A stretch of DNA of 24,475 nucleotides from the IMG/VR virus record IMGVR_UViG_3300042691_014185, positions 1 through 24,475 of that record; one strand, given 5' to 3'. The position numbers and the translations under genes are program-made. This document shows positions 10,006 through 22,492 of the stretch, one piece after another. Numbering within the stretch: position 1 is the first letter of the stretch; every line of letters starts with the position of its first letter. The notes below the pieces were generated by a model that did no database searches, was not told where the DNA came from, and saw only the letters and a program-made list of their open reading frames with translations. Source of the stretch: a virus.

Positions 10006-12258
10006 ATGAATGAGGCGCAAATATTCATTGAGGGAGAAATCACATCCCAGACCACACAAGACATAAAAGATACGCTTGCGCGGAATCAAAACGCTGACTC
10101 TTTCTGTCTACACATTTCATCTCCTGGCGGTTCTGTTTATGATGGCTACAAGATATTTCACGCCATCCGCAAAGCGGCCACACAATCAGGCCAAATAAAA
10201 AGAGTTCGTGCCGTTATAGAAGGAGAAGCCCAAAGCATGGCTACTATCATTTCAATGGCAGCGGATAAGGGATGTATTGAAATTGCCAACCCTTCCCGCT
10301 ACATGATCCACAACCCTTCAATGGGTGTAAAAGGAACAGCAGAAGATTTCAAGCAGGGAGCTACCGAGCTTTCCATGATTGAGGAAGAGATGGCGCAAAT
10401 CTACGCACAGCGCACAGGCATACAGCTCGAGCAAATCAAGCTAATGATGAAACAAACCACCAATATGACAGCTGAGGAGGCGGTTAGAATGGGGTTTGCA
10501 GATAAATTATCAACTCACCTAAGAGCGGTTGCGCTCGGAAAAAATATGGAAGAAAAAACACTCCTTGGAAAAATTGAAGCTGGAATCCAAACATTAGAAT
10601 CTGGCCTTAACAAATTATTGCAGCCATCAGCCGTAACAGGGCCTCCAAAGGTAACCGCGCCAACAGAGCCACCACCAATGCCCGCGCCAACTCCAGCAAA
10701 GTCTATGATAGACGCGCCTTTGCAAGACGGCACGATATTATCTATTGACGCGCCAAATGAGGATTCATTGGTTGGCGCACCAGCCACAATCAATGGCGCA
10801 CCGGCTCCAGACGGAGATTACCCTTGCCAAGATGGTGATGTAATCACTGTTATGGGGGGAAAGGTAAGCGCTGTTCAAACCGCTATGGATGCGCTTGCCA
10901 AGCAAAACGAGGCGTTGAAAGCCCAGCTTGAGGCTTTAAAACCAGCGGTGGCAACCGTAGCCGAACAGGCTAAGGTAATCGAGGAAGTAAAAACAACCGC
11001 AAAAGCGCTAAATGAACAAGTAACCATTTTAAAAAATACAACCGTGGGAAACCAAGAAAGACCAATCGAAGGGTTAGGCTCACCCCAACCTGTGGGACAA
11101 GGCCCCACAGCGGCAGCCGCAAAACAAACAGTAGATTTCTTAGGCGAATACATGCCTTGGCTGTCTCAGTATAATACCAAGAACAAGGTAGAAAAAAGCG
11201 GCCCGCAAGCAGCTGTTTTGGAGACTTCGTTTAACTATACCTATCCGGGTATTCTGACAACGGAAATCTTCTACAAACCAACCTTGGAAACCCCTGCGTT
11301 GAGTGATCTTTTCACAATCGATCAAGGCATTTCTTTCCGTAAGCGTTATAACTTGGTTACTCAGCTTTCCAACTTGTTAAAACCTTATGGAGGTTGCACA
11401 AGAATTTTCAACAACAACACTCAAAATATTACCAGTGCAGTTGTTGAGACAAAAGAGTTTCAAATGGCTGAATCTTGGTGTAAAGATGATTTCACCGATC
11501 AGTTGACAGGTGTTTATAACCACCTTGCACAAGAGTGGTTAAAGTCTGGCATTGATTCTTTTGATCCTACCGGAACGCCTATCTCAGCCGTAATCGATCA
11601 GATTCTTTCTGACGCTCTTCGTAGAGATGTATTCCAAAGAGTTTCTTTCGCTGCCGGTAACAGCTCATCAACAAACTACAACCAAATTGACGGCTTATGG
11701 GATCGCTTAATTGATTCTTCAGGCGGTTCAAACTACTGCGTAGTTCGTGGTGGTTCAGCTTTTGGAACGGGAACGCTTGCGGCAGGCGCGGCATTGACAG
11801 CCCTTGAGACAGTGTATGCAGCTTCTAATCCACTGTTAAAGCAGATGATTGGCAAGACTAAGTTCTACGTAACCGGATCGGTTTACGATAACTACGTGAA
11901 CTCTTTGATTGGTACTGGTAACGTATCTGCCAATCAGTTTCAGAATACTATTGACGGTGTTAATGGTTCTTTGAACCTGACAGTCGGTGGAGGTGTGAAC
12001 TACAAAGGTATCCCAGTAATCCCTGTACGTTTCTGGGATGTTAGCTTGCAAGATTCAAGCAACCCTTTGTTTGCAACCACTCGCCACTTAATCCTTTTGA
12101 CAGTAAAGGAAAACCATATTCTTGGTGTTGAGCAGGGCAAAGACTTGAACCGTATAGATGGATGGTACGAAAGAAAAGATCGTACGTTCTATTACGAGTC
12201 AGACATGAAATTTGGATACAACTATTTGCATTGTGATCTCCAGTCCATTGCATACTAA
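10006..12258 (+). CDS. head maturation protease - scaffold - major capsid protein fusion
   Basis: One uninterrupted 750-residue chain joins parts usually made by two or three genes. Residues 1-175 are a ClpP-type (S14) serine protease: oxyanion-loop SSPGGS (38-43), nucleophile S77 in GEAQSMAT, H102 in YMIHNP and D166 in MGFADKL. Residues 183-370 are a Pro/Ala-rich linker with a predicted coiled coil (about 290-345), matching a scaffold or delta domain. Residues about 374-750 resemble HK97-fold major capsid proteins of Bacteroidota phages. The protease should cut the scaffold and free the mature capsid protein. Met181 (10546) could be an internal start for a protease-free form. Arg codon CGT is used 7 of 13 times in the capsid part but 1 of 8 in the protease part, as expected if the capsid domain was under stronger expression selection. 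Confidence 0.9.
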   Translation: MNEAQIFIEGEITSQTTQDIKDTLARNQNADSFCLHISSPGGSVYDGYKIFHAIRKAATQSGQIKRVRAVIEGEAQSMATIISMAADKGCIEIANPSRYMIHNPSMGVKGTAEDFKQGATELSMIEEEMAQIYAQRTGIQLEQIKLMMKQTTNMTAEEAVRMGFADKLSTHLRAVALGKNMEEKTLLGKIEAGIQTLESGLNKLLQPSAVTGPPKVTAPTEPPPMPAPTPAKSMIDAPLQDGTILSIDAPNEDSLVGAPATINGAPAPDGDYPCQDGDVITVMGGKVSAVQTAMDALAKQNEALKAQLEALKPAVATVAEQAKVIEEVKTTAKALNEQVTILKNTTVGNQERPIEGLGSPQPVGQGPTAAAAKQTVDFLGEYMPWLSQYNTKNKVEKSGPQAAVLETSFNYTYPGILTTEIFYKPTLETPALSDLFTIDQGISFRKRYNLVTQLSNLLKPYGGCTRIFNNNTQNITSAVVETKEFQMAESWCKDDFTDQLTGVYNHLAQEWLKSGIDSFDPTGTPISAVIDQILSDALRRDVFQRVSFAAGNSSSTNYNQIDGLWDRLIDSSGGSNYCVVRGGSAFGTGTLAAGAALTALETVYAASNPLLKQMIGKTKFYVTGSVYDNYVNSLIGTGNVSANQFQNTIDGVNGSLNLTVGGGVNYKGIPVIPVRFWDVSLQDSSNPLFATTRHLILLTVKENHILGVEQGKDLNRIDGWYERKDRTFYYESDMKFGYNYLHCDLQSIAY

Positions 12259-12269
12259 ACCTTTAGTAT

Positions 12270-12827
12270 ATGGCAAACTGTAAAGTAGTAACAGGTATTA
12301 ACAACGTATGCGCAGACTTGCTGCAAGCGTCCGGTGTAAGCAAGGACTTTTATGTAGGTTATGTTTCTGATTTGAGTGTTAGATTTTCGACAGCTCAAAC
12401 AGGCCCAATCCCTTCAATTCAATTTGTTCCTTACAATGGGTTAATAAAGTTTGAGGGTCAGAAATACGCTCACAAATTTGACCATGAATTGGCGGTAGCT
12501 GAAGGCGGTAGTATATCATTCCTACATAAGGCAATGGTAAAACTAATGGCTCTTAGCACGCAGGACGATGTAGAATTACAGCGACTTGCACAAGCTCAGG
12601 ATATGTTTATCATCTCAGCCGATGTGAATGAGTCAATATTCATCTACGCACCGGTAAACGGATTTAGCGCGGTAGCTGGGCCGATAGGAACCACCGGACA
12701 AAAGGCAGGAGAGGACACAAGCGACACACTGAACTTCACTTCCAATGAAAAGGTATTGCCATTGCGTTTTAGCACTGGCGGAACATTTGCGGCAAATATT
12801 GCCTATTTGGACAGCTTGATAAGATAA
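12270..12827 (+). CDS. putative major tail protein
   Basis: This 185-residue protein follows the capsid gene by 11 nt and is the last gene before a strong terminator, so it is in the highly expressed structural unit. Phrases such as SKDFYVGYVSDLSVR (24-38), KFEGQKYAHKFDHELAVAEG and LSTQDDVELQRLAQAQDMFI match a family of tail-tube proteins that I recall from Bacteroidota siphophages. Its size fits a single-domain tube subunit, many copies of which stack around the tape measure. In most siphophages this gene sits just upstream of the tail chaperone and tape measure; here it comes after both. A head-decoration role is a less likely alternative. Confidence 0.65.
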   Translation: MANCKVVTGINNVCADLLQASGVSKDFYVGYVSDLSVRFSTAQTGPIPSIQFVPYNGLIKFEGQKYAHKFDHELAVAEGGSISFLHKAMVKLMALSTQDDVELQRLAQAQDMFIISADVNESIFIYAPVNGFSAVAGPIGTTGQKAGEDTSDTLNFTSNEKVLPLRFSTGGTFAANIAYLDSLIR

Positions 12828-12849: not shown

Positions 12850-12879
12850 AAAAGCCGAGGAAATTTTTCTCGGCTTTTT
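12850..12879 (+). terminator. intrinsic terminator after the capsid / tail-tube unit
   Basis: A perfect ten-base-pair stem, AAAAGCCGAG (12850-12859) with CTCGGCTTTT (12869-12878), encloses a 9-nt loop and ends in a T-run. It begins 22 nt after the stop of the tail-tube gene and has the form of a Rho-independent terminator, so transcription from the capsid promoter should largely stop here. Confidence 0.85.
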
Positions 12880-12974: not shown

Positions 12975-13169
12975 ATGAGTAAAATAAGCGATTTAAATAA
13001 AGCTGAACTTGTAGAGTACATGAAATCCAATGGTGAGATTCACCGCTACAATTCAGAGAGCCACGCATGGAAAAGGGCGTTTCATCTTATCAGAATGGCA
13101 GGACACGAGAACCTAGAGCACGGTTGCTCTAAATGTGTGGATAAAGTAAAAACATGGCTGCTACAATAG
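12975..13169 (+). CDS. hypothetical small Cys-containing protein
   Basis: The 64-residue protein opens the glycan cassette. It is helical, with an aromatic/charged middle (SESHAWKRAFHLIRMAGHEN) and a CSKC pair at 51-54 near the end, in HGCSKCVDKVKTWL. The CxxC together with His could bind metal, but only one pair is present. I cannot assign a function. It overlaps the next gene by 16 nt and lies 10 nt after a GC-rich hairpin, so it is probably the first gene of this transcription unit. Confidence 0.6.
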   Translation: MSKISDLNKAELVEYMKSNGEIHRYNSESHAWKRAFHLIRMAGHENLEHGCSKCVDKVKTWLLQ

Positions 13170-13825
13170 ACTTCATCCAAATTTACTACAACCAATCACA
13201 TAAAGAGTTTCTTTACGACTTTGCTAAGCATTACTATTCAGCCGGTTTAACACCTTACTTTGAGAATGCTATTATAGCGGGCATCGTGCCTACATGCGAG
13301 GCTGATTACATTTCTGTTTGTTCATGGCGCCTTAAAAAGAAGCGAGGCGATTCAATCCACTATCTCGGAGGGTTTGGCAGCGATCAGCTAACGATGGACA
13401 AGATTCAGGCCGCTATGCCATTTGATGTGGCCATACTCACCCCTAGAAGCCCACAGCATCAAGTTTTATCCATGGCGGCTAACTGGCATGGTAAGGCGTG
13501 GACGGATGCCTTCGATGCTTTAAAGCCATTTATAGGGACCTCAAAAGAACTTACACACGCTATATACGAGAATCATTTTATTACCAAGGCCGAAATCTAT
13601 AAGGATTACGTTAATAATTTTCTGATACCTTGTATTGAGTTCATGGGCGATAATCCGGTATTCTTTGCCGACTCAGGCTATCTTCAAAAGAAACGCGATC
13701 AGGAAGAGATTGCGCGGGTTCAAAAGCTTTTAGGCCGCACTGACTGGCCTATACTTCCGTTTATTTTAGAGCGACTTTTTAGCATCTACATTGAAGGCAA
13801 GAACTTAAACGTAACCAAGTTATGA
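13154..13825 (+). CDS. putative glycosyltransferase-like protein (DUF4422-like features)
   Basis: This 223-residue protein heads the row of sugar genes. Two phrases hint at a capsule-type glycosyltransferase: ADYISVCSWRLKKKRGD (50-66), comparable to the donor-site region with Tyr-Arg phrases in DUF4422 proteins, and ILPFILERLFSIYIEG near the C-terminus, where that family has an ERLF motif. I see no DxD motif of standard type, so donor and product are unknown. It overlaps the gene before by 16 nt and the next small gene by ATGA. The assignment is tentative and rests partly on the neighbourhood; an unknown structural or modifying protein remains possible. Confidence 0.45.
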   Translation: MAATIDFIQIYYNQSHKEFLYDFAKHYYSAGLTPYFENAIIAGIVPTCEADYISVCSWRLKKKRGDSIHYLGGFGSDQLTMDKIQAAMPFDVAILTPRSPQHQVLSMAANWHGKAWTDAFDALKPFIGTSKELTHAIYENHFITKAEIYKDYVNNFLIPCIEFMGDNPVFFADSGYLQKKRDQEEIARVQKLLGRTDWPILPFILERLFSIYIEGKNLNVTKL

Positions 13826-14004
13826 CGGAATTTTTTTTAATGTTAGGTGGATTTTTGATAGGCTACGGAGTCAATAAAATGCTAACGCCTGCTGAAGTAA
13901 AGGAGGTAAAGATCAAAATATTGGTAGACAGTAAACAGGCGATACTGGATTTAAATCAGGCCGAGGCCGCTATAAAAAAACTAAAAAAGGAAATGAACTT
14001 ATGA
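13822..14004 (+). CDS. small single-pass membrane protein with coiled coil
   Basis: The 60-residue product has an N-terminal hydrophobic segment, FFLMLGGFLIGYGVNKML (4-21), and a charged helical tail ending in AAIKKLKKEMNL. It should be an inner-membrane protein with a cytoplasmic or periplasmic coiled coil. The segment ILVDSKQAILDLNQAEAAIK lines up by eye with the first 30 residues of the tape measure protein, VDNKDAIVSIESLTKANKEL (12-31). It is joined by ATGA overlaps to the genes on both sides, so it is made with the sugar enzymes and might anchor or organise them. Function unknown. Confidence 0.55.
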   Translation: MTEFFLMLGGFLIGYGVNKMLTPAEVKEVKIKILVDSKQAILDLNQAEAAIKKLKKEMNL

Positions 14005-14807
14005 TAGTAGCTAGACACATTGGAAGGTTGGGTAACAATATGTTTCAGATCGCTGCAGCTATCGGATACGCTAGAAAATACGGTTATCAATGGTCTGCTG
14101 ATTACGGGCGCGGTGTAGGTGAACCTTATTCATGTATCCATGAATCCTTTCCAAATCTTCCAAAGCACGAACTATCTGGAGTAAGATACCACGAACACCC
14201 AAACGAGTTTTGCCAAGTACACGGAGTTCATAAAAATGAATGCCATTTTGATTACCATCCTATTCCTAACCTTGGCGGTAACGTTTCATTAATTGGATTC
14301 TTTCAATCGTACAAATACTTTGAAGGGCAGGATGAAGAGATAAAGAAAGTGTTTGCCTTGCCCCATATTGAAGGTTATGAGGACTATGTGAGCATCCACG
14401 TCAGGCGCGGTGATTATGTACAACACTCGGGGAGTTTCCCGCCTATTGATGCTGAGTATTTAAAAAAGGCAATACTGCAATTACGGATTAATATAGGCGC
14501 TGAAAAATTTATTGTTTTTTCTGATGATATTGAATGGTGCAAGCAGACATTAATAAACCACGAATCAGAAGTTTTTTTATTCTCCGAAGGCCGCACCGAA
14601 ATTCAAGACCTTGCGCTTATGGCTTCATGCGGTCACCACATTATCGCAAACAGTACATTTAGTTGGTGGGGCGCCTACCTTGGACATAATCCGAATAAGA
14701 TCGTTATTACCCCATCAGCTCAAACATGGTTTGGCCCAACCGCTGGGGTTAAGAAACCCGTTGTAGATTTACTTCCCTCTAACTGGATACAAATACACAC
14801 AAGATGA
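14001..14807 (+). CDS. GT11 family alpha-1,2-fucosyltransferase-like enzyme
   Basis: GT11 enzymes move L-fucose from GDP-fucose to the 2-hydroxyl of a galactose-like acceptor. The 268-residue protein has every landmark: GRLGNNMFQ (8-16) at the N-terminus, HVRRGDY (133-139) for GDP-sugar binding, FSDDIEWC (173-180), and the C-terminal ANSTFSWWGAYL (216-227). Length is normal and the gene is intact. No signal peptide is seen, so it acts in the host cytoplasm. The upstream and downstream junctions are both ATGA. The donor is expected to be GDP-fucose from the host, but the epimerase two genes downstream makes GDP-L-galactose, a close relative, plausible. The acceptor is unknown. Confidence 0.9.
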   Translation: MIVARHIGRLGNNMFQIAAAIGYARKYGYQWSADYGRGVGEPYSCIHESFPNLPKHELSGVRYHEHPNEFCQVHGVHKNECHFDYHPIPNLGGNVSLIGFFQSYKYFEGQDEEIKKVFALPHIEGYEDYVSIHVRRGDYVQHSGSFPPIDAEYLKKAILQLRINIGAEKFIVFSDDIEWCKQTLINHESEVFLFSEGRTEIQDLALMASCGHHIIANSTFSWWGAYLGHNPNKIVITPSAQTWFGPTAGVKKPVVDLLPSNWIQIHTR

Positions 14808-15502
14808 TTTCAGTCTGCCTAACCAACTACAACCGTACCGATTTACTTTTTGAATCAATAGCGCCATTTTTAAATGATGATCGCATTGATGAAATAGTAA
14901 TTTCAGACGATCACAGCATTGAGAAATTATTTAATGAGGTATGCGAGAAATACAAAGACCATGAAAAGGTGCAGATATTTCGCAACACGGAAAATCTTGA
15001 CTGCTATCGCAACAAAAGACAGGCGGTAAAACGAGCCACAAATGAATATGTTTTGCTTTTGGATAGTGATAATATTTTCACGGTGAGTTTTATTGACAAG
15101 ATTTTTTCACTCAAAGAGGCGTGGGAACCTTACATTGCTCTAGCTCCATGCTGGGCAAAACCTCATTTTAACTTTACTGAGTTATCAGGAAAGACGATCT
15201 CAAAGGAAAATGTAGCCTCACTTTTAAACGTTGGCAGTTGTTCAACCATGCTCAATGCAATGAACTACTTTGTGAATCGTGAGGAGTATTTGCGGGTGTG
15301 GGACGGATCGGTAGACCCCGTAACGAGCGACAGCCTTTATCAAAATTACAATTGGCTGAATGGAGGAAATAGTATCTTTGTTGTGCCTGACTTAACTTAT
15401 GAACATCGCGTACACGCTGGCAGTCACTATCAAAACAATGTGAGAAGAACGCCACAAGGCTTCCATGATTCGATTATTGATAAACTAAAAAACTTGAAAT
15501 GA
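14804..15502 (+). CDS. GT2 family (GT-A fold) glycosyltransferase
   Basis: The 232-residue protein starts with a nucleotide-sugar-binding strand typical of GT2, MISVCLTNYNRTDLLFESI, followed by VISDDHS (32-38) and the metal-binding LLDSDN (85-90) that serves as DxD. It should add a sugar from a nucleotide donor with inversion; donor and acceptor are unknown. It lacks membrane segments, so it is a cytoplasmic enzyme. The C-terminal half (WLNGGNSIFVVPDLTYEHRV) fits the acceptor part. It is tied by ATGA to the fucosyltransferase before it and the epimerase after it, which suggests that the three act on one glycan. Confidence 0.85.
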   Translation: MISVCLTNYNRTDLLFESIAPFLNDDRIDEIVISDDHSIEKLFNEVCEKYKDHEKVQIFRNTENLDCYRNKRQAVKRATNEYVLLLDSDNIFTVSFIDKIFSLKEAWEPYIALAPCWAKPHFNFTELSGKTISKENVASLLNVGSCSTMLNAMNYFVNREEYLRVWDGSVDPVTSDSLYQNYNWLNGGNSIFVVPDLTYEHRVHAGSHYQNNVRRTPQGFHDSIIDKLKNLK

Positions 15503-16569
15503 AAACAGCATTGGTACTAGGCGCTGGCGGATTTATAGGGTCACATCTTGTCAACCGTTTAAAGTCGGAAGGTTATTGGGTGCGCGGTGTAGATTTGAAG
15601 CATCCAGAATATTCACCAAGTCAAGCGGACGAAATACTTATCTACGACTTACGCAAACCAGAAAACGTTAAGGCGGTTATGAAATTGGAATATAATCACG
15701 ATTGGATAATGCCATTTCAGTACTTAAAGCATCCATACTCAGAAGAAAAACCATTTGATGAAGTCTACCAACTAGCGGCAGACATGGGCGGGGCTGGCTT
15801 TGTTTTCACTGGCGAACATGATGCCGACATCATGCACAATTCAGCGTTGATTAACTTGAACGTTTGCCATTATATTGATAAAAAAAGCAAGTTGTTTTAT
15901 TCCTCATCGGCTTGCATGTATCCGCAGGAATTGCAGAACGATTACCAGAATACAGGACTAAAAGAAAGGGACGCTTACCCGGGCAATCCAGATTCTGAGT
16001 ACGGATGGGAGAAACTTTTTAGCGAGCGGTTATTTTTAGCGTATGCCAGAAACTACGGTTTAGATGTGCGCATCGCTCGCTTTCATAACATTTACGGGCC
16101 GGAAGGAACGTATAAGGGAGGTAGGGAAAAGGCACCCGCAGCTATGTGTAGAAAGGTGATTGAAACTATGGAATTCGTGGATGATGTTCTTTCAGGTAAA
16201 ATTTATAGGCAATCATTAAATAGTGGCGAAGTTAATATTGAAGTCTGGGGAACGGGCCACCAAACGCGTTCATTCCTTTACATAGACGATTGCATTGACG
16301 CGGTTCTATTACTTATGCAGTCCGAATTTAAAGAGCCTATAAACATCGGCAGCGAGGAAATGGTGACCATTAACCAACTTGCTCAGATGGCAATTACTTT
16401 AAGTGGGAAACACATCAAGATCAAAAACGTGCATTCAAACGCCATCGGTGTAATGGGGCGCAATTCAAATAACGAATTGATTGAAAAGGAGCTTGGATGG
16501 AAGCCTAAATATTCCTTGAAGCAAGGGCTAGAAAAAACCTACAACTGGATTAAATCGCAGTATGAGTAA
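15499..16569 (+). CDS. NAD-dependent epimerase, GDP-mannose 3,5-epimerase-like
   Basis: This 356-residue extended short-chain dehydrogenase binds NAD through GAGGFIG (8-14). The catalytic set is S137/C139 in SSSACMYP, Y168 and K172 in YGWEK. LAADMGGAGF (92-101), a DIMHNSALINLN phrase (110-121) and ARFHNIYGPEGTYKGGREKA are hallmarks of GDP-mannose 3,5-epimerases, which turn GDP-D-mannose into GDP-L-galactose. The insert around residues 60-84 is longer than in most relatives. It lies between a GT2 and a small unknown gene and probably makes the donor for a transferase of the cassette. Substrate class is likely, but close bacterial relatives with other sugars exist. Confidence 0.82.
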   Translation: MKTALVLGAGGFIGSHLVNRLKSEGYWVRGVDLKHPEYSPSQADEILIYDLRKPENVKAVMKLEYNHDWIMPFQYLKHPYSEEKPFDEVYQLAADMGGAGFVFTGEHDADIMHNSALINLNVCHYIDKKSKLFYSSSACMYPQELQNDYQNTGLKERDAYPGNPDSEYGWEKLFSERLFLAYARNYGLDVRIARFHNIYGPEGTYKGGREKAPAAMCRKVIETMEFVDDVLSGKIYRQSLNSGEVNIEVWGTGHQTRSFLYIDDCIDAVLLLMQSEFKEPINIGSEEMVTINQLAQMAITLSGKHIKIKNVHSNAIGVMGRNSNNELIEKELGWKPKYSLKQGLEKTYNWIKSQYE

Positions 16570-16747
16570 AAAATTTGTGACCGTATACGTCAAGGACGGA
16601 AAGGAATACATGAGTGAGGTGGAGGCTTCAACAACAGAGATTGCAAACACTAAACTTCATCAGCAGGGCAAGCGCAACGAGAAAGTAATAGGCGAGTTTG
16701 TGGCTGAGATTGATTCGGAAGGAATTGAAGATAAATTGAAAAAATGA
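16562..16747 (+). CDS. hypothetical small acidic protein
   Basis: I do not recognise this 61-residue protein. It has a strand-like start (KKFVTVYVKDGKEYMSEVEA) and a highly charged helical end. No cysteine, signal peptide or membrane segment is present. It overlaps the epimerase by 8 nt and the double methyltransferase by ATGA, so it is translated within the cassette. Its place suggests an accessory role only by association. Confidence 0.5.
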   Translation: MSKKFVTVYVKDGKEYMSEVEASTTEIANTKLHQQGKRNEKVIGEFVAEIDSEGIEDKLKK

Positions 16748-17934
16748 CAGGCATTTCTGAAACCGAAGTAAAAGCAGTTTTAGCCCTTCGTGAGCGTTGC
16801 GGGGCTGATCCTATTGTGTTCGATGTTGGCAGTAATAAAGGGGACTGGGCTAGTATCTTAGCGCCTAATGTGAAAGATATTCATTTATTTGAGCCCAACG
16901 AAATACTTCTGCATTACTCAATGGTTAGGTTTGACACATTAAAAAATGTTCACTACAACCAAAACGCGGTATTCAGCAAAGAATCAGAATTAGATTTCTT
17001 CTACTTCACAAACAATAACAACGGCCTTTCAAGTATCTACTATAACAAGTTTTGGGAAGATGAAGGCTTGCCAATGAAGAAAGGCAAGGTTAAATCTATC
17101 AAACTCGATGAGTATTTTGCCTATTATTTTGATGGGCAAGAAAACATTGACATTCTAAAGATTGATGTTGAGGGTGCCGACTTTGACGTATTACTGGGTT
17201 CTGAGTGGCTACTATCAAAAAAGAAAATCAAGTTTATTCAGATAGAATACTCCACACACTACACACTTGCCGGCCGATCATTTCAGGACGTGATTGATTT
17301 AGTTACAAAATACGGTTACTCGCTTTACCATTTCAACGGGGAAGATTTTGAACCATACACAAACCAACAAGCAGAAAACTTTTACATTATGGCAGAATAC
17401 ACCCAAGATTGGAACAGCGAATTTAAAAAGAATACCAAAGGGATAAGGGTTCAAACGGCTTTGGAGATTGGGTGCTTTGAAGGGTTAACGACAAATTATA
17501 TCTGCGATAACCTTTTAGTGGAAGGTGGCCGGATTGTTTGCGTTGACCCTCTCACGGATGAGTATTTACCTGGGCATAAGGATAACGAAATGTTTAAAGG
17601 TCAGTACGATCGATTTATTAGAAATACGGCCGGCCGTCCAGTAGAACTAATCCGAAAGAAAAGCATTGATGCCTACAATCAACTGAAGGACTTATCATTT
17701 GGGCTTATCTACGTTGACGGTGACCATACCGAGGAAGGCGTTTATCAGGATGCTATTTTGTACTTTGAAAGGCTGCTAACTCAAAACCAAGGCGGGGGCG
17801 GCTACATGCTGTTCGATGACTACGGCCAAAGCGAAGAAACAAAGCGCGGGATTGATCGGTTTCTATCCGACAGGCAAGGGCGTTACAGTTTGATTTTAAA
17901 AGGGTATCAGGTTTTAATCCGTAGAATATGGTAG
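16744..17934 (+). CDS. fused double methyltransferase (FkbM domain + class I SAM domain)
   Basis: Two SAM-binding modules lie in one 396-residue chain. Residues about 20-215 match FkbM-type O-methyltransferases: VFDVGSNKGD (25-34), HLFEPN (47-52) and ILKIDVEGADFDVLLG (137-152). Residues about 235-396 form a second class I domain of Methyltransf_24 type: LEIGCFEG (240-247), VDP (267-269), YVDGDHTEEG (323-332) and FDDYG (357-361). Both are apparently intact. FkbM enzymes commonly O-methylate sugars; the second domain may methylate another position or serve another substrate. Upstream junction is ATGA and the downstream gene overlaps by 7 nt. Fusion is the odd point: the parts normally occur as separate genes. 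Confidence 0.85.
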   Translation: MTGISETEVKAVLALRERCGADPIVFDVGSNKGDWASILAPNVKDIHLFEPNEILLHYSMVRFDTLKNVHYNQNAVFSKESELDFFYFTNNNNGLSSIYYNKFWEDEGLPMKKGKVKSIKLDEYFAYYFDGQENIDILKIDVEGADFDVLLGSEWLLSKKKIKFIQIEYSTHYTLAGRSFQDVIDLVTKYGYSLYHFNGEDFEPYTNQQAENFYIMAEYTQDWNSEFKKNTKGIRVQTALEIGCFEGLTTNYICDNLLVEGGRIVCVDPLTDEYLPGHKDNEMFKGQYDRFIRNTAGRPVELIRKKSIDAYNQLKDLSFGLIYVDGDHTEEGVYQDAILYFERLLTQNQGGGGYMLFDDYGQSEETKRGIDRFLSDRQGRYSLILKGYQVLIRRIW

Positions 17935-18692
17935 AAAACTTATACGCGGGGTTTTTAAACATGAACCACCGCACCGATCGACTAACCCACATGGAAGCGC
18001 AACTGTCAAAAGTTGGATTAAAAGCTGTCAGACACCGAGGCAAAAAGCCACAAGAATATAACCTAGACGATCCAAAGTATAGAGTGATGTTGAACCGCAC
18101 ACCTGGCGCGATAGCTTGCCATGAGGGACAAGTAGAAATAATGAAGACAGCGCAATACATCCAATCACACGCGCTAGTTTTAGAGGACGATGTAATATTT
18201 TGTGATGACTTTCAAAAACGCCTTGAGTACATTGATAACTGGACAAAGACCCACGAATGGGATGTTATTTGGCTTGGTGCCTCCTTCCACACTAATCCTC
18301 CTTACTGGCATCGTATAGGAGTTTCTGGAATGCCTCCAGATTGCAGCGCGCAACTTGGAAAGGACTGCGAACCTACGGACGATCCGAGAATAATCAGGAC
18401 TTACGGGGCTTATGTAACCTTTGCTTACATCGTCAATTACAATTCGATGGACAAGATTTTTAAACTGTTTGACGAGCATTTACACACCTCAATAGGCATT
18501 GATTGGCTGTTCATTAAGCTGCAGCCGCAGTTAAAATGTTTTTCATTTGTCCCTGGTTGCGTTATGCAAATGGACAACATGAGCGACATAGGAACAGGAA
18601 TGACGGTATGGAGTGGTCAACTTAATAACGGCCCTTATGTATTTCAGAAACGAATGGAGGACTTTAACCCAGAAACCTTTAAATGGATATAG
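17928..18692 (+). CDS. GT25 family glycosyltransferase (LPS-type)
   Basis: The 254-residue protein fits GT25, which adds galactose or other sugars to lipopolysaccharide or related glycans. It starts with YAGFLNMNHRTDR (6-18), has TPGAIACHEGQ (58-68), where the family has GEIGC.LSH-like phrases, and a DxD-type LEDDVIFCDD (85-94). YGAYVTFAYIVNYN and GIDWLFIKL fit the later acceptor and base regions. No signal peptide is seen. It overlaps the upstream methyltransferase by 7 nt and the following one by 10 nt. Specificity is unknown. Confidence 0.75.
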   Translation: MVENLYAGFLNMNHRTDRLTHMEAQLSKVGLKAVRHRGKKPQEYNLDDPKYRVMLNRTPGAIACHEGQVEIMKTAQYIQSHALVLEDDVIFCDDFQKRLEYIDNWTKTHEWDVIWLGASFHTNPPYWHRIGVSGMPPDCSAQLGKDCEPTDDPRIIRTYGAYVTFAYIVNYNSMDKIFKLFDEHLHTSIGIDWLFIKLQPQLKCFSFVPGCVMQMDNMSDIGTGMTVWSGQLNNGPYVFQKRMEDFNPETFKWI

Positions 18693-19312
18693 TTTACAGA
18701 ACATACCCTTGCGATATTTCAATTTGCTCATGTCAGCATATATCCGGAAAGGGATTTGCTTGCACCGCTACCGAAAAAACTATGATAAAACACCGCGCAG
18801 AACTTTACAAACTACTTCCTCCCAACTCTGTGATTGCCGAGATCGGTACCGCAGAGGGATATTTTGCTTCCGATATGCTGGCATGGCCAGTAACCAAGAA
18901 GTTGTATGTCGTAGACAATTGGGGAACCATTCCAAATCAATCTGGGGACGGCAACAATCCGCAGGAATGGCACAACAAAAACTATTCGGATGCCATGCTT
19001 CGGCTAAACTTTGATATTGAAAAGGTGGTAGTTTTGCGCGGAATTAGCTGGGACATGGCCGCAAGCGTGCCGGATAACAGCCTAGATTTGCTTTATATCG
19101 ACTGCTGTCACACCTATCAATGTGTAAAGGCGGATATAAACGCATGGATTGGCAAGGTTAAAAAGGGTGGAATAGTGGCCTTCCATGACTATGAGAACAG
19201 GGCCTACGGAGTGAAGCAAGCCGTTGAGGAGTTCTGCAATGGAAAATACAAGATTGAGTTGCTACCAGAAAACAAACCAGAGGACGCGGGCGCGTACTTC
19301 ATAAACCAATAA
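18683..19312 (+). CDS. class I SAM-dependent methyltransferase (Methyltransf_24-like)
   Basis: The SAM site is AEIGTAEGYFA (52-62), with the ribose-binding acidic VVDNW (76-80), then the typical YIDCCHTY (138-145) and a FHDY near 167-170. It resembles the second domain of the fused methyltransferase upstream, so the two may be old duplicates. The length, 209 residues, assumes the ATG at 18683, which overlaps the GT25 gene by 10 nt; the start region is Cys-rich (residues 10-27: YPC, CSC, FAC), and an inner ATG at 18782 could be the true start of a 176-residue protein. Substrate is probably a sugar or a related small molecule. Confidence 0.78.
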   Translation: MDIVYRTYPCDISICSCQHISGKGFACTATEKTMIKHRAELYKLLPPNSVIAEIGTAEGYFASDMLAWPVTKKLYVVDNWGTIPNQSGDGNNPQEWHNKNYSDAMLRLNFDIEKVVVLRGISWDMAASVPDNSLDLLYIDCCHTYQCVKADINAWIGKVKKGGIVAFHDYENRAYGVKQAVEEFCNGKYKIELLPENKPEDAGAYFINQ

Positions 19313-19316
19313 AACT

Positions 19317-19952
19317 ATGCTAATAGATTTCAGGGCACTATTTCCAAAGTACGGTATCAATCCGAAAGGAGTTTTACACGTTGGCGCAAATGTAGGAGAA
19401 GAGGCACCAGTTTACTTGGAACTTGGCATTAAAAGACAGATTTGGATTGAGGCCAACCCAGAGATTTACGAAAAGTTAAAACGCAACATAGCAAACAATC
19501 CAGAGGCAGAAGCTATACAGGCTTGTATTACCGATGATGATCAGCAAGAGGCTATTGACTTCCACATCTCAAATAATGGTAGTCAATCTAGTTCTATACT
19601 TGAATTAGGCACTCATTTGATAGCTCACCCAGAAGTGAACTATACCAATACAATTAAATTGATTCCACAGAGGCTTGATTTCTTTTTTGAAAATGTTTAC
19701 GATGTTTTTAACAGTGATTTGGATTTTCTTAACCTTGATTTGCAGGGAGCTGAATTAAAGGCATTGAAAGGGCTAGGCATCCACTTACATCATTTTAAGT
19801 ACATCTACACAGAAGTAAACAAAGAAGAACTTTACAAAGGTTGCGCTTTGGTCGGTGAGATTGACGAGTACCTAAGTCACTACGGATTTAAGCGAGTGGA
19901 AACAAAGTGGTGTGGTAATACTGGATGGGGAGACGCTCTTTATATCAAATGA
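19317..19952 (+). CDS. FkbM family methyltransferase
   Basis: The 211-residue protein has the FkbM set: motif I VLHVGANVGEEAP (19-31), IWIEANPE (42-49), and FLNLDLQGAELKAL (137-150), which takes the place of the family's KIDVEG. It is intact and complete, and starts 4 nt after the previous stop. FkbM enzymes methylate hydroxyl groups of sugars or other polar products. Having this in addition to the FkbM domain of the fused protein suggests that two positions or two sugars are methylated. It is joined to the next glycosyltransferase by ATGA. Confidence 0.85.
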   Translation: MLIDFRALFPKYGINPKGVLHVGANVGEEAPVYLELGIKRQIWIEANPEIYEKLKRNIANNPEAEAIQACITDDDQQEAIDFHISNNGSQSSSILELGTHLIAHPEVNYTNTIKLIPQRLDFFFENVYDVFNSDLDFLNLDLQGAELKALKGLGIHLHHFKYIYTEVNKEELYKGCALVGEIDEYLSHYGFKRVETKWCGNTGWGDALYIK

Positions 19953-20662
19953 AAGTAGAAACCTACATCGTTACTTGGAACCGAGAGGACACCATACACC
20001 TCACCATAAAACATTATTTAGAATTAGGCAGTGTAATTATTTACGACAACTGGTCAACGGATCGAACCCGCGAAATAGCCGAAAGTTTAGGCGCTGAAGT
20101 ACGGGTATTTGGCAAGCAAGGTGAGCTTGACGATCAGGCGTACTTAGATGCAAAAAACCACGCGTGGAAGGGTTCAAAGGCTGATTGGGTTATAATTGTT
20201 GATGATGATGAGATTCTTTACCATCCTAATTTAAAAGATGTTCTATTGACAACTACCGGCACCATTTTCAAGACTCATGGGTTTAATATTCACTCAGATG
20301 AAATGCCAGTAAATAGCTGGCTAGACATTCAAACCGGTGAGCCTAACGAGAACTATTCAAAACTTTGCATATTCAACCCAAAGCAGATAACCGACATCAG
20401 GTATAACTACGGATGCCATGTAGCACGGCCTATGGGTAATGTGATTTACTCTGATACTCGCTTAACTTTGCTCCATTACCGCGATGTGGGAGGTGTTGAA
20501 AGATTGATAGCCAGACATAAGCAATACAAAGAAAGGCTCTCAGAAATCAATAAAAGATACAATTTAGGCCATCATTATACTGAGAATGAACAAAGCAAAA
20601 GACAGCAATGGAAAGAATTTACAGAAAGGTGCGTAACATTATCCGAGGCTGGTTTACTCTGA
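19949..20662 (+). CDS. GT2-like glycosyltransferase (family 92/DUF23-like pattern)
   Basis: The 237-residue protein begins with ETYIVTWNRED (4-14), followed by IIYDNWSTDRTREIA (30-44) and a metal-binding VDDDE (84-88). The late segment LLHYRDVGGVERLIARHKQY is like the HYR-type ending of GT-A glycosyltransferases of the GT92/DUF23 group. I prefer the ATG at 19949, in an ATGA overlap with the FkbM gene, over an ATG at 19925 in the same frame, which adds only eight residues that overlap it. It should be a cytoplasmic sugar transferase of the cassette; donor and acceptor are unknown. Confidence 0.8.
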   Translation: MKVETYIVTWNREDTIHLTIKHYLELGSVIIYDNWSTDRTREIAESLGAEVRVFGKQGELDDQAYLDAKNHAWKGSKADWVIIVDDDEILYHPNLKDVLLTTTGTIFKTHGFNIHSDEMPVNSWLDIQTGEPNENYSKLCIFNPKQITDIRYNYGCHVARPMGNVIYSDTRLTLLHYRDVGGVERLIARHKQYKERLSEINKRYNLGHHYTENEQSKRQQWKEFTERCVTLSEAGLL

Positions 20663-20814
20663 TTAGCTGGCAAACTCCGGAATGGTCACGGAAACGGTTG
20701 AGAGCTTGCAACAAATGCCCACATAATAAGTTCATGCTTTGCAAAAAATGCGGCTGCCCATTGCACGCAAAAACCAGATCGATTGATGAAGATTGTCCGG
20801 AAGGAAAGTGGTAA
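20608..20814 (+). CDS. small zinc-ribbon-like protein
   Basis: The 68-residue protein ends with the spaced cysteines CNKCPHNKFMLCKKCGCPLH (34-53) and then CPEGKW at the very end. Two CxxC pairs plus extra Cys/His can bind zinc. Proteins with the CGCPL...K.R...CP.GKW ending recur as small phage proteins, as I recall, with no fixed function. It overlaps the glycosyltransferase by 55 nt, more than other junctions here; this is the only ATG before the Cys motif. It closes the cassette. Confidence 0.72.
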   Translation: MERIYRKVRNIIRGWFTLISWQTPEWSRKRLRACNKCPHNKFMLCKKCGCPLHAKTRSIDEDCPEGKW

Positions 20815-20860: not shown

Positions 20861-22492
20861 GTGAATAATGACGGTAAATTATTTTACGAGACAAGAGGCG
20901 GTGAAAAACGCCCCGTAGGCAGACCAATAAAGCCTATCGAATACGTCTCACCCTATCCACAGGCTTTTGATATTACAAAAAAACCTGAGGCTCTACAAAC
21001 AGAACTAACCACGCGTAATCAAATACGCAACGATTCAGGAACCCTTATCTGGGGAAATGATGACGCGCTTCCGATGAACATCTTGGATGCGATCGCTAAA
21101 AGCCCTACTACTTCATCATGTATTGCCCGAATAGAACAGTTTACAAGGGGCGAGGCGTTTAAGGATGAGGGATTAATGACAATGGTGATAAACAAAGACG
21201 GTGAAACGCTTTGGGATTTACATTGCCAACTAGTTCAATACTTTGCTTCGCTCGATGGATTTTCGGTAAACTTCAAGTTTAATTCTGAGGGGAAGATCAC
21301 AAATTCATACTGCATGAACACGGCCGCAATCCGTTTTGCGGCTCAGGCAGAAACAAACAAAATAACAGGCATAAAGTACAATCCTTACTGGGGAAGTAGC
21401 GAGTATAAAAAAGCTTTTACGCAGGATTATTCTATTTGGGATGCGGAGGCTTTGAGCGATCAAATTAAAAAGCAAGGCACAAAGTTTAACGGTCAAGTTT
21501 ATTGGCACGCGACAAAAAGAACGCTATACAAACATTATCCTGTTCCTAAGTTTTGGAGCGGATCAAAATGGATTTATTCAGATGCCAAGTTAGCGACCTA
21601 CATCGATACGATGCTGGATAACGGTTTCTTTTCTAGCGTGCTGATGAATGTTATTGGCGACCCTAATAAGATGTCAAAACATCCTGACTCTATGCGTGAA
21701 GTACGCGGAGATGATGGGGTTATACGCAAGGAGCCAACCAAAACAGAAGGCGAGGTATTTGGCGAGATGATGGCGTCCAATTTTTCGGGCGTTCAAAAAG
21801 CGGCTAAGGCTCTTGTTACCTGGTCAATGAACAAAGATCAAAGTGTAAACATTCAAGCGTTTCCGACTAATACTAATTTTGATTTTGTCTCAGGCACGCT
21901 TCGCGAGACTATCCGAATGATTACTATTGCAACCGAAGTCCCGGGTATACTTGCCAATCTTCCGGATGAAGTTTCTCCGCTTTCTGGGCAGGACTCAATC
22001 GATAAGGCTATCCAGCTAATGGTTTCTAATACAAAACCTAAAAGAAATGTTTTGGAGAACTTCTACAATAATATTTTGATTCCTAACCTAGTAAAAAGCA
22101 CCAAGGCAAGGGTTGAGATTAAAAACTATTCGCCTGTTAAAACATCGGTTACGGTGGATGACAAGTTCTGGGAGTTTATGAACGAGGCTGAGAAGATCGA
22201 CTTTATTCAGCGCAACGAACCAAACATAGTAATTAACAGGCCTCCTGCTGCCGAGCAAAACACGGCTCCAGCAACAACAGATGAGAAAGGAAATGTAATA
22301 TCGGCACCTATTGCTCCGAGCGTAGATGAGAATTTAAAATCTATGAAGGTGGCGGAGATCAACCGGATACTTTCTATCGTTAGAAAATTCAACGCTGGCG
22401 CGCTTACTATTGAGCAAGCTAAACAGCTTTTATCAGGTTATGGATTGAATGAGGAACAGCAATCGGCATGGCTTAACCCAACACTAGAATGA
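20861..22492 (+). CDS. portal protein
   Basis: The 543-residue protein is the dodecameric portal through which DNA enters and leaves the head. Its central phrases are those of the portal family in Bacteroidota phages: LIWGNDDALPMNILDAIAKS (43-62), ETLWDLHCQLVQYFASLDGF, SGQDSIDKAIQLM and a C-terminal helical region (RKFNAGALTIEQAKQLLSGY). It is in the usual size range and intact. The GTG start at 20861 fits the promoter motif 4 nt upstream; an ATG beginning 3 nt after the GTG codon is out of frame. The connector gene follows by ATGA. That the portal lies 19 kb from the terminase and is set off by the sugar cassette is unusual. Confidence 0.82.
   Translation: MNNDGKLFYETRGGEKRPVGRPIKPIEYVSPYPQAFDITKKPEALQTELTTRNQIRNDSGTLIWGNDDALPMNILDAIAKSPTTSSCIARIEQFTRGEAFKDEGLMTMVINKDGETLWDLHCQLVQYFASLDGFSVNFKFNSEGKITNSYCMNTAAIRFAAQAETNKITGIKYNPYWGSSEYKKAFTQDYSIWDAEALSDQIKKQGTKFNGQVYWHATKRTLYKHYPVPKFWSGSKWIYSDAKLATYIDTMLDNGFFSSVLMNVIGDPNKMSKHPDSMREVRGDDGVIRKEPTKTEGEVFGEMMASNFSGVQKAAKALVTWSMNKDQSVNIQAFPTNTNFDFVSGTLRETIRMITIATEVPGILANLPDEVSPLSGQDSIDKAIQLMVSNTKPKRNVLENFYNNILIPNLVKSTKARVEIKNYSPVKTSVTVDDKFWEFMNEAEKIDFIQRNEPNIVINRPPAAEQNTAPATTDEKGNVISAPIAPSVDENLKSMKVAEINRILSIVRKFNAGALTIEQAKQLLSGYGLNEEQQSAWLNPTLE

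Follow-up and report, generated by a model that had tools for sequence, protein, structure and literature searches.

Gene content of the cassette

The DNA analysed here is a 24,475-base virus fragment from IMG/VR (record IMGVR_UViG_3300042691_014185, called the window when its full length is meant), and this report concerns a cassette of sugar-transfer, sugar-epimerization and methylation genes at positions 12975–20814, which probably serves to glycosylate the phage's own virion proteins. The cassette consists of thirteen open reading frames (ORFs), all on the + strand: nine enzyme genes, namely five glycosyltransferase or glycosyltransferase-like genes, one GDP-mannose 3,5-epimerase gene and three methyltransferase genes (with four domains between them), and four small ORFs. 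The ORFs are spaced at −55 to +4 bases, 4-base overlaps being the commonest arrangement.

12975..13169, + strand, small CxxC protein (o12975), a member of the fixed frame, found in minimal and full cassettes
13154..13825, + strand, glycosyltransferase-like protein (o13154) resembling WbbM/DUF4422, the first enzyme in every complete cassette
13822..14004, + strand, small protein with a weakly hydrophobic N terminus, its sole homologue being seen in the closest relative (L002)
14001..14807, + strand, GT11 glycosyltransferase (fucosyltransferase family), Pfam PF01531 at 109 bits, HxRRGDY motif
14804..15502, + strand, GT2 glycosyltransferase (GT2a), Pfam GT2 at 55 bits, DSD motif in 33/34
15499..16569, + strand, predicted GDP-mannose 3,5-epimerase, Pfam Epimerase at 131 bits, PDB 2c59 at E=7.5e-80
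16562..16747, + strand, small protein matching no PHROGs family
16744..17934, + strand, fused FkbM and Methyltransf_24 methyltransferase, Pfam FkbM at 65 bits and Methyltransf_24 at 55 bits
17928..18692, + strand, GT25 glycosyltransferase, Pfam 25.2 bits (cut-off 24), EDD motif in 24/24
18683..19312, + strand, Methyltransf_24/TylF-like methyltransferase, Pfam Methyltransf_24 at 56 bits
19317..19952, + strand, FkbM methyltransferase, Pfam FkbM at 66 bits
19925..20662, + strand, GT2 glycosyltransferase (GT2b), Pfam Glyco_tranf_2_4 at 38.5 bits, DxD motif in 34/34, retained in minimal cassettes
20608..20814, + strand, small cysteine-rich, zinc-ribbon-like protein (o20608), a member of the fixed frame, recurring across the cassettes of relatives

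All Pfam scores within the cassette lie above the curated cut-offs, and GT11, GT2a, GT25 and GT2b each combine a match above the gathering score with the motif of their family, that of GT11 reading HVRRGDY or HIRRGDY in 30 of 34 family members and differing by one residue in the other four. The original prediction, made from the DNA alone, had listed a packed set of ORFs with short overlaps and four small proteins, and had named a GT11, two GT2-like, a GT25-like, two FkbM and two Methyltransf_24-like domains; the ORFs are all present on the + strand, and each of these domains has its Pfam match. No transmembrane helix was predicted in any cassette protein of the window, and the five glycosyltransferases or glycosyltransferase-like proteins are thus predicted to be soluble.

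The product of 15499..16569 is closest to the Arabidopsis GDP-mannose 3,5-epimerase. Residues C139, Y168, K172 and K211 (numbers counted by hand on the alignment) align with C145, Y174, K178 and K217 of the plant enzyme, which we take to be catalytic, and are invariant across ten phage homologues; judged by this homology the protein is a GDP-mannose 3,5-epimerase, as the prediction of an enzyme of this kind had anticipated. GDP-mannose 3,5-epimerase-like genes at 55–60 % identity are also common in other viral contigs (L005–L063), and those of L007, L017–L019 and L028–L035 have a cysteine-rich gene resembling o20608 no more than a few kb away.

The first enzyme, o13154, has no sequence relative in Pfam or the PDB and none among cultured phages, and the Pfam DUF4422 profile matched none of 14 of its homologues at E-values up to 10, so that membership of DUF4422 by sequence is rejected. 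Its C-terminal motif presumably resembles that of DUF4422. A structure predicted from the 14 homologues has a mean predicted local distance difference test score (pLDDT) of 89.7, and the best solved fold for it is WbbM (PDB 6u4b; Foldseek probability 0.99, TMq 0.49, E only 1.5e-3), the match being to WbbM as such and not assigned to one of its domains; in a viral structure library it matched glycosyltransferases and one DUF4422 protein (probability 0.98, TMq 0.56). WbbM is a bifunctional O-antigen galactosyltransferase whose N-terminal domain is a DUF4422/GT111 galactofuranosyltransferase (PMC12269835). The earlier label 'possible DUF4422-like' therefore stands as a resemblance of the modelled fold to WbbM and to viral glycosyltransferases, but not as a sequence family, and we take o13154 to be a glycosyltransferase with a fold related to GT111 rather than a proven member of that family.

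The cassette in related phages

We first scanned for relatives using the epimerase, o13154 and the capsid protein as queries, and a recurrent gene order emerged: capsid, tail tube, o12975, o13154, a variable set of enzymes, GT2b (or an unnamed protein, C4), o20608, portal and a DUF6712 protein. A profile of the portal protein, which is blind to the cassette although it was built from these relatives, was then used to scan IMG/VR and recovered 61 portal loci, 54 of them with at least 700 bases of upstream sequence. Cassette genes lie directly upstream of the portal in all 54, at portal identities as low as 27 %, and o13154 is present in each of the 40 complete, non-duplicate intervals between tail tube and portal, which range from 1.8 to 11.0 kb. 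In comparison with L002, the ratio of non-synonymous to synonymous substitution rates (dN/dS) is 0.04–0.10 in the five cassette genes covered, 0.07 in the capsid gene and 0.03 in the tail-tube gene. By this measure the comparison shows the tested cassette genes to be under purifying selection, at a level near that of the capsid and tail tube, and therefore suggests that their products matter. Given the 54 portal loci, the 40 intervals and this selection, the cassette is a resident of the lineage and not a passing insertion. The original prediction had proposed looking for the same gene set in related genomes and had held that its absence or degradation in close relatives would tell against a dedicated function; the cassette is neither absent nor degraded.

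The extent of the cassette differs greatly between relatives. Minimal cassettes (L086, L098 and L104) contain only o12975, o13154, GT2b and o20608, and the interiors of other relatives hold further GT2-like families, TylF methyltransferases, a GT47-like protein or a hexapeptide acyltransferase. Among the ten genomes that hold all families, divergence is correlated with that of the portal for o13154 (r 0.64), GT2a (0.69) and GT2b (0.52), and more weakly for GT11 (0.34), the epimerase (0.31), GT25 (0.16), MT24 (0.03) and FkbM2 (0.08). These values are good but not final evidence, the sample being small and the sequences diverged, that interior genes have been exchanged between phages of the lineage while a fixed frame has diverged together with the portal. 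Homing-endonuclease-like genes of the HNH and AP2-HNH types lie inside some of the relatives' cassettes (C22 in L004 and L078; C25 in L119, L125, L173 and L180) and could promote such exchange. In a distant branch (L131–L136) the cassette measures 3.1 kb and includes a hexapeptide-repeat acyltransferase, which suggests that the glycan there is perhaps acylated instead of methylated.

Flanking genes and a conserved terminator

The cassette is preceded by a ClpP–capsid fusion gene and a tail-tube gene, and is followed by the portal gene and the DUF6712 gene, whose product has no relative among cultured phages.

12270..12827, + strand, tail-tube protein (o12270), AlphaFold2 (AF2) model from a 35-sequence alignment
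12850..12878, + strand, intrinsic terminator with a 13-bp stem and T-rich tail, directly 3' of the tail-tube gene
20861..22492, + strand, portal protein, PHROG 11226 at E=7.5e-33

The best PDB folds for o12270 are the tail tubes 8zc9, 7t2e and 6yeg, every E-value being weak; the fold predicted for the gene preceding the cassette is thus that of a tail tube, as had been supposed. A strong terminator occupies the position 3' of the tail-tube gene in 22 of 39 relatives, with differing sequences, as against 5 of 780 shuffles and none of 237 ends of ten other genes, and it sets the cassette and portal apart, as one unit, from the capsid and tail tube. A promoter scan of the cassette gave 38 matches where 33.7 were expected by chance, and no promoter is claimed.

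Two features of the surrounding structural genes were also observed. In the window (10006–12258) a single 750-aa protein combines a ClpP-type head protease with the major capsid protein; the two domains are encoded by separate adjoining genes in L086, L104, L108, L110, L112, L117 and more distant relatives. The late genes at 292–22492 run in an unusual order, from terminase through tail proteins and tape measure, protease–capsid and tail tube, and the cassette, to the portal, and this order with the portal last is kept across the lineage.

Host and lifestyle

The cultured phages with relatives of the large terminase subunit (TerL) are Flavobacterium, Bacteroides, Cellulophaga and Polaribacter phages or gut phages, and those with relatives of the portal are Cellulophaga, Tenacibaculum and Bacteroides phages; on the basis of these two proteins the host is most likely a member of the Bacteroidota. 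Seven of ten long contigs (41.6–46.3 kb) have exact terminal overlaps of 99–141 bases and so look like complete genomes. Tyrosine integrase (PF00589) was not found in the records of 21 relatives, nor serine recombinase (PF00239) in those of 26, and two proteins revealed no prophage relative in 84,980 species genomes. The 26 records likewise yielded no GtrA (PF04138), no initiating sugar-phosphate transferase (Bac_transf) and no Wzx, and thymidylate synthase/hydroxymethylase (PF00303) was missing from 25 of them, the exception being one distant record.

Relationship to known glycosylation systems

Virion glycosylation has been reported for three mycobacteriophages, Che8, Corndog and Myrna (Freeman et al., 2023, as cited in PMC12363180, PMC12619734 and PMC11600133). 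The virion proteins of Che8 are glycosylated and its gp110 is reported to be essential for capsid glycosylation (PMC12363180, citing Freeman et al., 2023), and in the glycosylated mycobacteriophages the glycans are placed at the C-termini of the capsid and tail-tube proteins (PMC12619734). C1, a family of glycosyltransferases encoded in the sister cassettes, gave tblastn matches in 35 Mycobacterium and 22 Gordonia phages and nowhere else among 50,697 records, the best being to Che8 gp108 (34.6 % identity over 94 % of the query). The gp108 protein is a fusion of a C1 domain (142.8 bits) with a TylF-type methyltransferase (47.7 bits), and in several sister cassettes the C1 and TylF families adjoin; by Pfam, gp110 is a GT25 protein, a family that it shares with 17928..18692 of the window. 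We regard the homology of C1 to gp108 as the most telling link to phages with proven virion glycosylation. The mycobacteriophage system thus resembles the present one in its phage-encoded glycosyltransferases and O-methyltransferase. Che8, however, is a temperate phage of the F cluster (PMC12363180) with three glycosyltransferases, whereas the present lineage lacks an integrase, its glycan is predicted from its genes, and its locus, which has a varying interior, places as many as five glycosyltransferase genes, three methyltransferase genes and a gene for a nucleotide-sugar epimerase between tail tube and portal. A search of the accessible literature for virion glycosylation in phages of the Bacteroidota found no paper.

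A good positional analogue may be seen in the flagellin glycosylation islands of Enterobacteriaceae, where a variable island of GT2, GT25, sugar-enzyme and FkbM genes adjoins the gene for the polymeric surface protein on which the sugars are placed, and where content differs between close strains (PMC4875605). Those islands are bacterial, lie between fliC and fliA and occur in about 15 % of strains, whereas the cassette is viral and occurs in every relative checked.

A working hypothesis for virion glycosylation

Our current working hypothesis, to which we assign a probability of roughly 0.68, and in which both glycan and acceptor protein are deduced from the genes, is that the locus serves a lytic phage lineage with Bacteroidota-type hosts as a resident module for virion glycosylation, acting in the cytosol on the phage's own virion proteins. 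The soluble enzymes, made late in infection, would act before lysis, assembling a short O-methylated oligosaccharide directly onto at least one virion protein; candidates are the tail tube, the major capsid protein and a tail protein that is exposed. Since minimal cassettes keep just o13154 and GT2b with two small proteins, these two frame enzymes may start the glycan or carry out its innermost part. The epimerase would convert host GDP-mannose to GDP-L-galactose or GDP-L-gulose, and GT11 may take GDP-L-galactose instead of GDP-L-fucose; GT2a, GT11 and GT25 would extend the chain by additional sugars, and methylation by the FkbM and Methyltransf_24/TylF enzymes would cap its hydroxyls. The benefit might be shielding against binding proteins or altered adsorption. 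Donor sugars, order of addition, acceptor and benefit are what we infer from the enzyme families, and the tail-tube protein o12270 is a candidate acceptor. In one minimal-cassette relative (L086, 12547–17175) a 1542-aa protein with many N/S/T-rich repeats is encoded downstream of the portal; it is possibly a tail protein and a glycan acceptor.

A broader proposal, whose chances we consider evenly balanced, is that the lineage carries an obligatory virion-glycan locus comparable to a bacterial O-antigen locus, with conserved end frame enzymes and an exchangeable interior containing homing endonucleases, so that each phage would have its own methylated glycan, in some cases with L-galactose-type sugars supplied through the phage GDP-mannose 3,5-epimerase. 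On this view, virion glycosylation would be both essential and diversifying in phages other than the actinobacteriophages.

Several observations weigh against our working hypothesis. No serine/threonine-rich C-terminal tail was seen in the tail tube or the capsid. The homologue of Che8 gp108 sits in sister cassettes and not in the window, and the direct profile match between the window GT25 and gp110, at 20 bits, is weak. The three glycosyltransferases of Che8 lie at the end of its genome, which means that virions can be glycosylated by enzymes encoded away from the structural genes. Finally, cyanophages hold relatives of the window enzymes in the GT11 and FkbM families, and the targets of those enzymes are not established.

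Alternative explanations

The main rival, which we consider unlikely, is that the cassette alters a surface glycan of the infected host (lipopolysaccharide, capsule, S-layer or lipooligosaccharide) late in infection through cytosolic lipid-linked intermediates, and so blocks superinfection or the re-adsorption of progeny to debris. O-antigen loci typically contain enzymes of the GT2, GT11, GT25 and epimerase families, a lytic phage could make use of its host's carrier and flippase, and host-surface remodelling is often ascribed to cyanophages that carry GT11 and FkbM genes. With no transmembrane helix in the cassette and no GtrA, initiating transferase or Wzx in the records searched, however, a complete surface polysaccharide or a periplasmic modification of the Gtr type fits only if host parts are borrowed. 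The integrase searches showed no lysogeny genes, the cassette is grouped with the portal behind a conserved terminator, some relatives make do with a two-enzyme form, and enzymes of the sister cassettes are homologous to those of virion-glycosylating phages. The serotype-converting gtrABC clusters resemble the cassette in being phage-borne sets of glycosyltransferases and differ in having GtrA, a membrane enzyme and an integrase, and host conversion by a prophage was rejected because integrase, prophage relatives and GtrA are all missing from the searches. The original prediction, too, had favoured decoration of the virion over host conversion, and had envisaged a dedicated, multiply methylated glycan; these absences and the homology to Che8 strengthen the former, and the enzyme families and lineage-wide conservation the latter, both still being deductions.

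Improbable, in our judgement, is a glycan made on a non-virion protein of phage or host, for example a lysis or transport protein: in its favour, no acceptor motif was recognized, but the fixed place among structural genes and the homology to virion-glycosylation enzymes point to the particle. It is more improbable still that the glycosyltransferases modify phage DNA bases, as with hydroxymethylated cytosine, as a protection against restriction. Some viruses are known to encode glycosyltransferases that hypermodify DNA (Pyle et al., 2024, as cited in PMC12619734), but the thymidylate synthase/hydroxymethylase family is confined to the one distant record and the cassette sits among structural genes. 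Nor are GME, GT11 or FkbM known to be DNA-modifying families. That the cassette is a recent moron or passing insertion of no settled function is scarcely credible, for although the interior genes seem to have been swapped and some cassettes contain homing endonucleases, its presence at every portal with upstream sequence, the purifying selection and the co-divergence of the frame genes refute it for this lineage.

Implications

Because every relative that could be checked carries the enzyme set in some form between its tail-tube and portal genes, these phages are likely to coat their own particles with a tailored sugar chain that varies among them. The locus is unusual among phage glycosylation systems in being both lineage-wide and modular. 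The virion glycosylation described in the papers cited here is that of actinobacteriophages, and an obligatory, modular locus in a large uncultured lineage would, if true, mean that phage sugar coats are more widely spread. It would also raise the question of what selects for such coats in hosts without antibodies, for which the occurrence of minimal and full cassettes in otherwise similar phages provides a natural experiment.

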